DNA of 64,000 nt from Nannochloris sp. 'desiccata' (taxonomy: Eukaryota; Chlorophyta; Trebouxiophyceae; Chlorellales; Chlorellaceae). The stretch spans positions 930,001-994,000 of the forward strand of contig JAGTXX020000014.1 in assembly GCA_019044685.2 (NCBI GenBank), in the 5' to 3' direction. Below the pieces are notes generated by a model that did not search any database, was not told the origin of the DNA, and saw nothing but the letters and a program-made list of their open reading frames with translations. This document shows positions 36,360 through 43,180 of this stretch, piece after piece. Positions within the stretch are counted from its first letter, which is position 1, and each line of letters starts with the position of its first letter. A program made the translations under genes and the position numbers.

Positions 36360-36370
36360 AAAATGTCCAC
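36360..36370. repeat. Target-site duplication, left copy
   Basis: aaaatgtccac, repeated directly at 43170-43180. The last three bases may belong to the element, leaving an 8-bp duplication. Confidence 0.8.
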
Positions 36371-36422
36371 AAGCCTTCGGCCCCTACAATATTCACATGA
36401 AATTCTTAAATGAGATTCTCTA
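36368..36422 (+). repeat. Transposon left terminal inverted repeat
   Basis: 55 bp starting cacaagccttcggcccc. It matches the reverse complement of 43115-43169 except at positions 1, 3, 13 and 19. Confidence 0.92.
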
Positions 36423-36779
36423 AAACGCTTATTGCTTTGCTCTCTTCAGCTCAAGCTTATTAAATATTTATTTACTAGTTTATACCAACCGCCTGGCTGC
36501 CTACGCCCCGGCTAGGTACAGTTTGGACATCATGATGATCATCCTGAGTTGCAGTGTAAAGTTTGCAAGGTGTTGCGAGGGCGTCCGTTGTTTCGTTTTC
36601 AACTCCATTTTGTCATCAAATTGTATGCACTCAGTTTAAGCAGGCTTCTAGTGCGCTTTTCTCTCGAAATTGCCCTACTCGAAATTGCTCTCCCAAGAGA
36701 GAAATTTATGATTAAAAAGCAATAAAATGAGCTGGATAAGTTATAAATCGAGGCTGAGAGTTTGGCAAATCGTATATAG

Positions 36780-39700
36780 AGTGTATATCATAAAATTGGA
36801 GGCGACTTCCTGTTTTTCTGGGTTGACGACGCTCCCAGATTCAAATTGAGCTACACCGCCACTGTTAATTTTGCAGATGCCCTTGCGGACCAGGGAGCAG
36901 GCGCACTGAGCAACTTCTTCCACGAAGCTAACGAAAATAACGTTACTAGCCACAGTCACATCAATTTATGGTCAACAATAGGGACTCACAACATCAGAAA
37001 ATTTATAGTGACGGGACCAGACTGGAGTCATTTGTCATCGAAGAGAAAAGCTACCGAAAGAGGCAGGCAACCGGACTACATCATTAAATGTTTGATCGAG
37101 TTAAAACACGAAGGCTTGCCATTTGTATTTTTCTATAGACCGCTCATGAAGTCGGCTACTGAAGCGCAGTGGGTAATCTGCGAGGTATTTCCAGAGGCAC
37201 ACGCTGCAACCTTGGTCAATACTGATGCCTGGAAGCAGCTGCTGCGGTCAACCGAAATTTTACCTCCACCTAGACCGAAATTTAATGCTGCTTACAGAAG
37301 ACCAGCAAAGCAGCCCAGGTTGGGACCAACACGTCGTCAGTTCAATTCAACGGTAGTTGGCGGTGGTTGGGAAAATGCACAAATCAGAGAAGAGCGTCGA
37401 AGAGAATATTTGAAGCCTTTGCAGGACGCTGGGGTAACTGAAAATGTTTTTCTGGAACGCATGAAGCATCTTTTATCTTCATCTAGCAGTTTACCACCAA
37501 CTCTGGTGCTTGATGATGGCGATGAGCTCCAAGTGGTCATGCCTGATTTTATTGGGCAACAAGAAACCCTATCAAAGGTGCCTGTTCTGGTAAGTGATGT
37601 TGGATGCGGTGTCCTTCACCTGTTTTGAATGAATTCTATTCTTCTAATCTTTCTCTATCCTATTATCTTGCAGGTATCACTTGAGCAGGGCGAGGAACCA
37701 AAGTGCCGGTGCACCTGTCGCCTATATCGCGTAACCGCCGTCTGTGCACATGTTGGCCTGATTATCACGTATGAAAATGAGTTTAGAAAATTGAATTTGG
37801 CAACTGGACGTGTTGCAGGTGTAGTACCTATCGAAAACACGGATGGCGCACTTGTTGCTTATACTGTGCACGGCAAGATTGTTCGAGTAATGAAAGAGAA
37901 CAACAAACCGAAGTTCAGCTGCACTCACTGCAGTGGAAGTAACTGCAATCATGCTTGTGAGTCAATACGCTATGCAGAGAAATATGGAATTGGCTCTGAT
38001 TGCATTGATGGTGATTTAGACGGCACCGAGGACGACGATGATAGACATAAATATTTGCAGTTGAAAGATGGTACGTGAAATACGGAATTTAAATCTGAAA
38101 TGTACTTGGTAGTTGCTGATCTTTTCTCTCCTTTGCAGGTCATTATCACTTGCCAACTGGGCTTACTTGGCCAAAGTCACCATGTGTTACCGATGCCATC
38201 GAGCGTTTGCTCTTCAAAAAAAAAAATGTTTTCAAGGTAGGTAATTGATGTCTAGATATGCATTTTTGTATGGTATTTGACACATTATACTAATTACTCG
38301 TTGTATCAAATTCGTGGTTTGCAGGACCGTGTGAGCAACGTTGAGTATGCTTTGGCGCCGCAGCGGGGAGGCCCCTGCACCTGTGACGGTTGTTACGATT
38401 CCGGCTCCTATGAGTTTGTTTCTAACTGCAACTTGTTTATGGAACGCTCTGATGGATGCTTACAGCTCCCTTTGTATAATCTGCATTGCTCAAACAAGAA
38501 CCCGGCTTGTTGCAAGAGGTACAATGGTTCCGAAGATGGGGTCTTCATGATTAGTAAGACTCAAGCTGTCTCTCTTGGCTTTCTTTATCGAAATTTGGAG
38601 CTATACCATGCTTCTGGACTCTCCCCTGCTGCATTTTATTCTGCTGTTTTGGAAAATGAATACAATGGGCCATATGAAAATTCAAAGCCCAATGTGGACC
38701 TATTCTCTGAAAATACTTGGCGCCAAGCCCTCTTCTTGTTCTTGTGTAGCCTTCGCAACACGTCGTCAGGGAATGTATTCAAGTGTGCTCATTGTAGAAA
38801 CTGTCCTGAGAGCCTTATAATTGATGGTACTGCAGTGACCATGAAGGGAGATCGTTTTACAGGCCAGCCTATCAATGCCGTCTTGGAGGACGCCAGAGTG
38901 GTAGAGCAAAAGCATAATATGAACTCTCGAGCATTTTTTAATATTCAAGCAGAGAGGAAGACTTTGAACACGATAGCTAGGCGTTATGCGAAGAGCATAA
39001 AGGCTATTGACAGCACACCCGAGTCCCCTCTTCCCAAACTTTGCGATTGCGATAAAAAACTAGAAGAACGAGCGGGTAGTTATGGCTTGGACCTGTTTTT
39101 AAAATGGGTTGATGAGAAGATTCAAGCTAGAGAGTTGTCAAAGGCAGAGAGAGAAGCGATTTACTACTTTTTGGGAAGAAATATTGGTACCAATAGCCCT
39201 GTGCTTGCTTATTTCCCCAACCTGCTCGTATCTCTAATAGAAGATAAAATCAGCGGCGACTCTCGCTTGTTGCCAAGAACTGTTGTGGATGCCATCGCAG
39301 CATCTTCCCCTAGCTTGTTTAATGTTCTCAAAGTATCAGGTGCTCGTCGTAGTCGTCCATTTACTGTACCAGAAGCATTTCTGCCATTGCTTAGAGTACT
39401 TTGCGAGCGAGCGCACCATTGCACAGAGGGTCCCGGCATCGAGGAAGTAGATGAACTCGCTCAAGAAGACGCTAGAAGGCAGGAGTCCTCTGCAGAATCT
39501 CTTGAATGTCTCGGCACTGGAGTGTGTGTGGGGATCCCTCAGCTAAGAGAACGGCCCAAATTTACTGCTGATAAGGCCAAGGACTTCATTGGTTGTAATA
39601 AACAGTTTCTTAAAGGGCGTGGGCGCACTGGTGGGGTGATGACAATATTTTGCCCCCATGGCGTCTGCTATGCAGGATTTATTCTCCCAAAGGCGGAAAG

Positions 39701-40088
39701 CAGAGATCATTTGTTCAGTTTTATGGTGAAATACTTGGAGAGGCCCCCCAAATATCTTGTCTATGATTTTGGTTGTGCTGCGCTAGATTATTGCCTCAAC
39801 CGCCTCCCAGGTTGGTTTAAAAATATGATGGTAGTTGTGGACCGAATGCATTGGGATAACCACACTGCATGCTGCTCTCGTTTTAATATTCGTTTATACG
39901 AAGATCTCGATGGTCTTAACAGCCAGATTGCAGAACAGTGCAACGCCGCTTTGAGAAAAATCAATCCGACGCTGCATCGTTCAAGTCAACCTTTCTTCAT
40001 GGTAATGCTACGGCAGTATCTACATGCCTGGAACACAAAAAAGGAAAAGGCACTTGGTATAGGCCTCGGCCGAGGGCTTCTTTATTAG
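36780..40088 (+). CDS. KDZ/HMGXB3-like transposase with SWIM zinc finger
   Basis: The exons run up to 37589, then 37674-38070, 38139-38236 and 38325-40088, joined in phase at GTAAGT/GTACGT/GTAGGT donors. The result is about 1000 residues. The 5' end is unresolved: the frame is open from 36780 without a good ATG, so a short upstream exon is likely. A SWIM-type finger (CTC..CAH, nt about 37704-37757) and a cysteine cluster (CTCDGCYDSGSYEFVSNC and CSNKNPACCKRY, about 38375-38515) precede the catalytic core. The core has CPHGVCYAGFILPKAE, YLVYDFGCAALDYCLNR (Asp at 39765), VVVDRMHWDNHTACC (Asp at 39840) and LNSQIAEQCNAALRK (Glu at 39933). This arrangement matches Kyakuja-Dileera-Zisupton transposases and the domesticated HMGXB3. 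No stop interrupts any exon. It would cut and paste the element via the flanking TIRs. Confidence 0.85.
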
Positions 40089-40687
40089 TAGGTGTGATGG
40101 GGAGATGGTGACTCGTCTTTCCGTGGTTGAAAATTTTCAACAGTTTTTTTCAATTGATTATATAATGTTAACTAAATAATATTCTAAGCTGAGATGGATT
40201 TGTAATAAGATTATCGGATGAATAAATCGATTCATGGCGTAATAGCGTGGATTAAAATCATTGGTTATGCATAATTAACGCTCTCTCATTAATAACAACA
40301 CTTTTAGAGAAGATGCAAGGGCACCGCACATACCCGTTACCCCTAGATTCTCATACCTAATCACGTTGATGGCCACAAATCTTCTATAATTCCATTTTTT
40401 GTATATTTTTATTACATGTTGGGTATAAGAGGAGGCAAGAAAGCTGAAAGAGTCATGAGGAAAAGGAGAAACCGTTGAATACTGAGACAGGTGATCTCCG
40501 CCGCCACCACTCAATGATCACTCACAACTACCACCACCAAAAAACAAAATTGAGGAAAACCAACTTGATATTCAGCACAAGCACTATAAATAACACAGCT
40601 CCAGAAAGTTTAACCACGATCTACGGCAGCTGAAAAAATGAAGCAGCAGGCCAGAAGGCGAAAAAGCAGGCCAAAAGCACACACTGA
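40089..40687. other. Convergent non-coding stretch inside the transposon
   Basis: About 600 AT-rich bases between the transposase stop and the stop of the second gene. It should hold both 3' ends. TGTAA occurs near 40200. No further gene was seen. Confidence 0.45.
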
Positions 40688-43003
40688 TCACTCGTCTTCA
40701 ACACCACTACTGTCTAACTGGGAAGATTCAGGAGATTCTATATCACTATCACTATTTGTGGCCTGATCTGCAATATTTAAACCATCCATGCCATCATCAT
40801 TCTCCTGCTCTAGATCACTAGCCGCCTCATCTTCAATGGCAACGACAACATCCTCCAAAGCCCAAGCTAAACAACCAGTAGAAGAATTAAAAACTGGATC
40901 ATGAGCGCGTTGGAGTCTATGAAGACCATTATTCATAATTTCTGTTTGCATATCTTCAAACTCGTCTTCTCCAACCTCTTGATCTTCGATCCCAGCGCCA
41001 CCCCCGCCTGCACCTTGTTGTTGGAGCAAGCCTTCTTCAATATCAGCATTACCAACTTGCTGTGGGTTTTGGAAATGCTTCACCACGGAGGTGTTAAAAA
41101 ATACTTTCAGCGCGTGAGCGGACAGGAGAAGTACCTTACCACCATTACCAGTTCGAAATTTTTGCTCTCCTCCATCCAACTTTGCTTCGAGCGCTGCAGC
41201 CTCAACGGAATAGCATACCTTCCCCAACGCGCTCTTCCTATTTCTCTGCAAGAAACAAAAGAAAATTGATTAAAAACGGATAATCACGTATGAATGTGCA
41301 CTATATTATACTTACCCACTTGTTCCAAGTAGAAAATGGTGGCTCTTTAATGTCGACGCCAGCGCCGAAAAAGTTGAAGAGCTCACTGAGCAAGAAATAA
41401 CTGCCTAACGGCAATGACACCTCCGCGTTGCTTCCCTTACCGGCTGTAATACCCAATATACCGGCAGCTCCTGTTACTGTTATGTAGAAACGATGAATAA
41501 CAGCGATCCCTCCTAAATAATCCATACCTTGCAATTGGCGAACACAACCGACGGTTGTTGGTTGAAGTTCCTCTTCAGCAGGGTTCCCGTCAGGATGGGC
41601 CCCTTCAGCAGCAAAATCAGAATCCCAATCAATAGTGTCAGGGGCACCAGTAGCAACAACTTGAATATCACCACCAATCTCAAGGGCATTACCCAATATA
41701 GCGGTGTACTTGTCGAGTTGAAATATTAATGATTTAGAGGCCTCCACGACCTGTGGTGCTGCACGATTGAGAGCCTGCACCATTACCTCTATTTGCCTGA
41801 GTTCTTCCATGGCTGCTTCGAGTTCATTGTATAAAATTAAACACAGCTGAGCTACTAGGTCGCATTGATTCTCAATCTGCGGTAAAAGCGCCCGCAAAGA
41901 TGGGAACCTGCTGCCAATATCAGTGCCTTGCTGGTTGAAGAGCTGTTCCAATTTGAATTTGGTTGCTTGAACAGCAGCTGCAGCGTTATTACGAATGCGT
42001 GCTCCTGCATTTGCCCCTAGCAGGAGAGTGTTACTATCACGGAATGGGGCAGGTAGTTGAGACTCCCGCCGAGGTGGAGCTAAAGCTACACCAACAGCTG
42101 CAGCTGTTGCCAGAGTTGCATCCCCACCAGCACCAGCAGTTTCCATATCTAGACCATCTTGTGCATCAGCTACGACTGCAGTTGCGTTGTCAGTGGCGCC
42201 TTGCTGCTGCTGCTGCTGCAACCCCATGGCTGGCGCCTGATCAATGAATCGTGCAAGAGCCTGAGGTTGTCTTCTATTGTTAGCCTTTGCACTGATGTCA
42301 CCGGAATCCAAAAACCGCACATGGTCGTTGAGGTCTTTCACGTAGTCCTTCACTTTGCCGATCAATTCAGGGGTCTGCAAACTGATGCCAATGCCCAACT
42401 GCTCAGCCATGAATTTTGAATACCGTTGAGCTACTGTTCTGCCCTTCTCCTACAAACCAGTGATAAACAGGAAGTTCTTAAGTTAGTTTATTATGATATG
42501 AAGGAAGTTTAATTAGCCTAGCCAACGTACCGAGCCTCGTAAATTGCAGGCAACTGCCCTCAAGATTATTTCAACCCTTGTACATGACAGCCTTCTATTT
42601 CGCCTGAAGCGGGCATCTTCGACATCTGAGATAATATCTCCTCAATCTCTGCAGACCAATAGGGGCAAATCAGCATGAAATAGGACGCAGATGATCAAAC
42701 CCAAAAATATAAAAATGCATCTTTCCTCACGTTTCTTTACCGCTTCATTGTCCACATTATCCGCTGCTCTGAAATTAAATTCAGCAGGAGTATCTGCAAG
42801 GCCATCGGAGCGCATTTCAGACAAGCCAGCGCGAAACTTATATTATGAATCCCAAACTTATACAGCAATTCGTCCAATCGCGCTTGATCCAGGGATCTCG
42901 CCCTAGCAACAATAGTCTGTGGGTGTTCATTTTGTAATGGCCGCTCGCCAAGTTCTTTCAAGACGATGTTGGCGGCTGCCAGTAGCCTTGGGTCATGATC
43001 CAT
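40688..43003 (-). CDS. Second gene of the transposon, unknown function
   Basis: The two last exons are clear: 41316-42449 and 40688-41245, joined in phase 0 (donor gtaagt, acceptor tttcttgcag). Upstream exons are probable at 42864-43003, starting MDHDPRLLAAANIVLKELGE, and at 42741-42768. A further small exon around 42530-42630 (RVEIILRAVACNLRGS) is possible. The product is about 620-655 residues. It starts with helices, has Gln/Ala runs, then a long helical segment (RALLPQIENQCDLVAQLCLI, then LEAAMEELRQIEVMVQALNR) and a globular part containing YLGGIAVIHRFYITVTGAAG. It ends in an acidic Asp/Glu/Ser tail. No nuclease, protease, methyltransferase or TET/JBP motif is visible. Being inside the TIRs, it is cargo or an accessory transposition protein. 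Confidence 0.7.
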
Positions 43004-43114
43004 GATCAGGTAACTTCTAACACCTCGCAGCACCAGGGATAACCAGGACCTGCTAAACTCTTGTCAGTAATTTAAATAATATTTTAGCGGAGTTGCAGAT
43101 AGAATGACGCAATA

Positions 43115-43169
43115 TAGAGAATCTCATTTAAGAATTTCATGTGAATATTGCAGGGGTCGAAGGCTTCTC
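43115..43169 (-). repeat. Transposon right terminal inverted repeat
   Basis: 55 bp. Read on the minus strand it starts gagaagccttcgacccc and ends gagattctcta, mirroring the left end. Similarity stops abruptly inside both arms. Confidence 0.92.
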
Positions 43170-43180
43170 AAAATGTCCAC
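43170..43180. repeat. Target-site duplication, right copy
   Basis: aaaatgtccac, the direct partner of 36360-36370, followed by host sequence leading to the ClpF-like gene. Confidence 0.8.

Follow-up and report, generated by a model that had tools for sequence, protein, structure and literature searches.

A divergent KDZ-type DNA transposon with an opposite-strand partner gene in the green alga Nannochloris sp. 'desiccata'

The KDZ (Kyakuja-Dileera-Zisupton) elements are class II transposons already known from green algae: Zisupton and Kyakuja elements have been reported in Chlamydomonas (PMC8226300), and one of them, Kyakuja-3_cRei of Chlamydomonas reinhardtii, came to light through a new insertion (PMC10828217). 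As far as the cited accounts describe them, Zisupton and Dileera generate 8-bp target duplications, Zisupton possessing inverted ends, and fungal Kyakuja elements generate 7-bp duplications and are described without inverted ends (PMC12730594); KDZ1 of the fungus Cryptococcus neoformans combines 8-bp duplications with inverted ends of 241 bp (PMC12810828). Brown algae also hold KDZ elements, those of fungi often carry accessory genes, and for the giant DNA transposons of Ectocarpus, KDZ elements included, mobilisation in trans has been proposed (PMC12477816). Here we analyse an element in the genome of Nannochloris sp. 'desiccata', within a window of 64,000 nucleotides that corresponds to positions 930001-994000 of contig C14 in an assembly of 21.55 Mb and 18 contigs (for Nannochloris desiccata UTEX 2526, a genome of 21.6 Mb with 45.0% GC is given in a source that also cites a diploid Nannochloris assembly; PMC12636532). 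We are confident that this element is a DNA transposon of the KDZ superfamily and a recent arrival at its site, where its insertion duplicated 8 bp of target and interrupted no long open frame (its neighbours are a lipase gene on one side and, on the other, a gene with UVR and YccV-like motifs), and that it encodes a D-D-E transposase, in which the core follows cysteine-rich, probably zinc-binding segments, along with an opposite-strand, predicted helical partner protein that its relatives appear to keep.

How does this locus compare with the described systems? The window element shares with Zisupton and Dileera a KDZ-type D-D-E transposase and 8-bp duplications, and with Zisupton the inverted ends (PMC12730594); its protein is, however, too divergent for the KDZ model PF18758 to match it. 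The published description of fungal Kyakuja elements, with 7 bp and no inverted ends, does not fit an element with 8 bp and clear inverted ends, but this mismatch leaves the subgroup unsettled because Kyakuja-3_cRei, likewise a green-algal KDZ element, is described with an 8-bp duplication and imperfect inverted ends (PMC10828217). The elements KDZ1-KDZ3 of Cryptococcus neoformans likewise have a KDZ core and inverted ends, make duplications of 8 bp (4-8 bp in the case of KDZ2 and KDZ3) and exist in few full copies; they are, by the available description, about 9-11 kb long, with ends of 139-241 bp and a cysteine cluster of the CxC1 type, whereas the window element measures 6.8 kb, with 55-nt ends and a putative cysteine cluster that is CxC4-like in its relatives (PMC12810828). 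Fungal families carry a TET/JBP gene where the window element has a different partner gene, and no TET/JBP family is among the Pfam matches of the element's exons. Thus, the kind of element is already known; as far as our searches show, what is new is a divergent branch, its partner gene and a locus on contig C3 at which a distant paralogue of that gene lies without a transposase nearby. The system offers a small, well-bounded KDZ element in two near-identical copies within a compact genome of 21.6 Mb, an apparently conserved partner gene with a role that is open to testing, and perhaps an instance in which a partner gene has turned into an element of its own.

Ends, target duplications and a second copy

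The element spans positions 36368-43169 of the window. Its left terminal inverted repeat (36368-36422) begins CACAAGCCT, an end found in identical form at C12:702836, and the right one (43115-43169) has AGGCTTCTC as its last bases. These two 55-nt repeats are identical at 51 of 55 positions without a gap, exactly as given in a preliminary description of this DNA made from the sequence alone; as a control, the 300 nt immediately inward of each end were compared in the same manner, and their best ungapped 55-nt inverted match reaches 27/55. The next inverted pair in the list for this region has a length of 31 nt and 71% identity. The direct repeat aaaatgtccac, reported in the same description as touching both ends, is indeed present (36360-36370 and 43170-43180) but overstates the target duplication by three bases: the trailing CAC consists on the left of the first three bases of the element and on the right of a chance match. 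The duplication is accordingly the 8-nt AAAATGTC at 36360-36367 and 43170-43177, because a second copy also starts with CAC and yet has GCATAAAG on both flanks.

This second full copy (C12:702836-709974) aligns end to end with the window copy, and the alignment halts at the ends of the element. It has the same inverted ends and is bordered by the perfect 8-bp duplication GCATAAAG, so that perfect duplications and inverted ends are found in both full copies. The insertion on C12 breaks no long open frame; the open frames that flank it are unlike those on C14, and one of them looks by eye like an aminotransferase. The two loci show the pattern of two separate insertions, each with an 8-bp duplication. 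When the first 60 bases of the element were compared with the whole assembly, four ends were detected, two per copy, and a 26-nt end pattern allowing up to three mismatches recovered the same four and nothing more (control patterns gave zero matches).

Over about 6.8 kb, the two copies differ by 15 substitutions, two 1-base indels, two 3-base indels and a single difference of 337 bp, by which the C12 copy is longer. The last of these involves a stretch of 194 bp that is single in the window copy (40483-40676) and double in the C12 copy (L005:6116-6309 and L005:6453-6646), where the repeats lie 143 bp apart between the two converging genes. Given this near-identical copy elsewhere in the genome, the element has moved recently, as the preliminary description supposed; its present autonomy, in contrast, is not established. 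The further proposal of a live family is not supported as such and has at least one recent event behind it, since the family in this assembly is small, comprising only two full copies and two transposase relics. One relic (C10:451555-453316) is 66-78% identical and is interrupted by stop codons, seven of them in its longest piece, and the other (C8:543685-545353) is 35-50% identical, also with stops; neither has recognisable ends or a second gene in the stretches read. An empty site was not found for the C14 locus in the one assembly searched (the C12 site was not included in this search).

The transposase and its place in the KDZ superfamily

The plus strand of the left half can be read as a transposase gene of four open exons, together about 1022 residues, with exon boundaries set by eye. 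The open part of exon 1 extends from 36780 to 37589; exon 2 (37674-38070) contains a cysteine-histidine motif, CxCx(n)CxH, that was recognised by eye and has no Pfam match; exon 3 (38139-38236) is read in the same frame as in P0016, the gene predicted at the C10 relic. Exon 4 (38325-40088) encodes 587 residues that include a putative cysteine cluster, CxC4-like in relatives, and the KDZ catalytic core. The segments rich in cysteine are probably zinc-binding and may also contact DNA. A putative D-D-E triad in exon 4 consists of D167 (38823-38825), D481 (39765-39767) and E537 (39933-39935). In an alignment of 15 sequences, D481 and E537 are invariant, and D167 is present in all 14 rows that cover it. 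In the predicted structure of exon 4 (mean predicted local distance difference test score, pLDDT, 62; predicted template modelling score, pTM, 0.59), D167 ends a strand, D481 follows a strand and E537 lies in a helix of low confidence; the alignment and the model together suggest that these are the catalytic residues.

The assignment to KDZ comes by way of relatives. A search with the exon 4 protein, in which 8000 candidates were scored, returned 18 proteins at E<=0.001, four of them named for this alga and the others encoded on contigs from ENA, JGI and lgn sources, and the alignment joins the window exon with 14 of these 18, leaving out P0012, P0015, P0016 and P0018. At E<=0.1, PF18758 recognises 12 sequences of the 15 in this alignment, with a best value of 4.2e-11; the exceptions at this threshold are P0002, P0004 and the window exon itself, which has no match even at E<=1. 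Among ten proteins scanned against the curated cut-off, four score above it for PF18758, including P0005, which is 62% identical to the window protein; the KDZ match of the C8 relic (22.1 bits) falls below. The CxC4 model matches three of the 15 aligned sequences at E<=0.1; among the ten scanned proteins, P0014 scores above its cut-off, P0002, 78% identical to the window protein, is matched weakly (E 0.042), and the window exon has no match. A profile comparison with three exons of a separate, canonical KDZ family of the same genome pairs the same motif but is not significant (E 0.33). A genome-wide KDZ search lists that canonical family and, below the cut-off, the C8 relic, and the two full copies of the present element are absent from it. 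Elements of the hAT kind also make 8-bp duplications; no hAT transposase or dimerisation domain occurs among the Pfam matches of the window exons (E<=1) or the 15 aligned sequences (E<=0.1), which for a protein so divergent is weak evidence. We conclude that the element belongs to KDZ because its relatives, unlike its own sequence, match PF18758, and that its family, being missed by the standard KDZ profile, forms a divergent branch. The superfamily named in the preliminary description is supported in this indirect fashion, and the search with hidden Markov models pointed to no other.

The partner gene and alternative readings

A second gene, which the preliminary description did not mention, occupies a large part of the element's right half. 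This gene, NADE_007288 (protein P0019, 613 amino acids), is annotated on the minus strand with four exons at 40688-42815; an open frame containing MDHDPRLL... on the same strand (42737-43063) is a possible upstream first exon, which resembles the beginning of the C3 paralogue weakly and not significantly (E 0.2). A search with the main exon found nine proteins at E<=0.001, P0019 included, and a profile search that also used the C3 paralogue found ten, which again include P0019 and also the C3 protein, the best 8000 candidates being scored in each case. The 12 different proteins on these two lists have no precomputed Pfam domain. Two of the relatives, P0022 and P0020, lie on JGI contigs of 186374 and 7121 bases, and the transposase relatives P0003 and P0007 are on contigs of precisely these sizes, also from JGI; the equal sizes suggest that the partner gene and the transposase are linked in relatives as well. 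This apparent conservation together with the transposase is the main evidence for a role of the partner protein, which most likely would assist end recognition or assembly, or else shield the element from silencing.

The known chemistry of D-D-E transposases, which cut at inverted ends and join these to staggered strands of the target, suggests how the element might move. The D-D-E core would cut at the 55-nt inverted ends, in a cut-and-paste fashion, and the cut ends would be joined to target strands staggered by the 8 bp that are seen as the duplication, with the partner protein possibly assisting in transposition or in the recognition of ends. Because neither copy has an evident start codon for the transposase, the recent activity might have been supplied in trans.

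So could the direct repeats and the twin locus result from segmental duplication or misassembly rather than from transposition? Such an origin appears extremely improbable. A single assembly was searched, and its 21.55 Mb amount to roughly a single haplotype, a diploid assembly having been reported for this alga, but the two loci align no further than the ends of the element, and the open frames around them are not the same; such dissimilar flanks are evidence against an artefact, the objection raised in the preliminary description. In addition, the transposase protein P0001 of assembly Ndes2437A is encoded on a contig whose 1,630,158 bases come close to the 1,630,598 of C12, and its letters imply the change of the C12 copy at codon 119 but not those at codons 154, 161, 202 and 399. 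A much more serious contender, which we rate as somewhat less probable than its opposite, holds that both copies are already non-autonomous, their own gene having lost its start, and were mobilised in trans by a transposase from another allele, strain or lost copy, as has been proposed for the giant DNA transposons of Ectocarpus, KDZ elements included, in the account cited above. Exon 1 is identical in the two copies, and its open frame has no ATG before 37146 in either; in the window copy, a TAG (36777-36779) shuts this frame on the upstream side. For these reasons a complete transposase is not established, although the absence of internal stops claimed in the preliminary description holds for all four exons. 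In the C10 relic, an ATG in an open frame precedes the matching stretch; just downstream of it the relic has a nucleotide that is missing from both young copies, and the window copy alone has TAG where the C12 copy and the relic have GAG. Differences peculiar to each copy may also be of consequence, and the preliminary verdict of a complete and live element is not shown to hold. In exon 4, eight codons differ between the copies and seven of these change the amino acid; the C12 copy is altered at R202 and G399, two residues without variation in the alignment of 15, at the nearly invariant P161 and at C154, present in 13 of 13 covering rows, and its exon 3 runs in another reading frame for 54 nt between an inserted and a deleted nucleotide. 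The window copy, however, retains the family residue at all four positions and, judged by these residues and the frame of exon 3, has been better preserved than the C12 copy; codon-position counts show no clear coding signal in the stretch upstream of exon 1, and an upstream exon or a downstream start could still provide the beginning of the protein.

The second gene, in turn, might be a passenger or a captured host gene that plays no part in transposition, an explanation that we regard as rather unlikely. It would account for the lack of a known domain, for an AlphaFold model that shows a long helix and disorder at very low confidence (mean pLDDT 31), for a resemblance to CENP-H that stays weak and below the cut-off, and for the C3 paralogue, around which no transposase exon occurs in the 9.5 kb read; accessory genes are, moreover, described as common in fungal KDZ elements. 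Against it stand the matching contig sizes of the two pairs of relatives and the 382-residue exon of this gene, which is open in both copies and differs in length by two in-frame 3-nt indels, along with the structure of the C3 locus. There, the one further clear relative that the second gene has in this genome, annotated in another assembly as the 467-residue protein P0028 (99% identical to a 333-residue exon), is enclosed by inverted repeats of 128 nt and 95% identity that measure about 1.97 kb end to end (L021:3429-5395, equivalent to G000:C3:1081929-1083895). The arms start AGAAGCCT and the right end reads AGGCTTCTC, like the right end of the KDZ element, the left end of which differs in starting CACAAGCCT; no other match to the arm exists in the genome at E<=0.01. 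A speculative possibility, to which we give little credence, is that the second gene represents a novel family of partner proteins specific to this green-algal KDZ branch and can travel alone, the C3 locus being a compact inverted-repeat element of the partner gene only that is moved by KDZ transposases, or controls them, via the shared AGAAGCCT end. The absence of a flanking 8-bp duplication at C3 and the presence of a further partial end to the right of the locus both speak against such a lone element.

A canonical KDZ family in the same genome

The canonical KDZ family likewise encodes a KDZ domain and, at least in its 6.9-kb copy at C6:1582771-1589706, which has a run of T on both sides, possesses inverted ends; it differs from the window element in a strong match to PF18758, in ends that read CAGGTAAG and in duplications of 7 bp. 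The latter are TCAGCTC and ATGATCA, found outside two inverted pairs of copies, at C10:299213-310941 and C15:1701627-1715505, respectively. Long stretches of the C6, C10 and C15 copies are 99.96-100% identical. No relative of the second gene was found near this family. Two diverged cores, at C2:366363-367052 (67-68% identical to the C6 core) and C15:2037866-2038363 (49%), belong to the canonical KDZ type as well, and the sequence read around them has no exact copy of the 27-nt CAGGTAAG end. By eye, the pair on C15 suggests that one copy went into a terminal repeat of the other: the 33 nt of an extra left end (1701627-1701659) equal the 26 nt missing at the centre (1708569/1708570) plus 7 nt, and the middle 26 nt may have been flipped, by recombination or in assembly.
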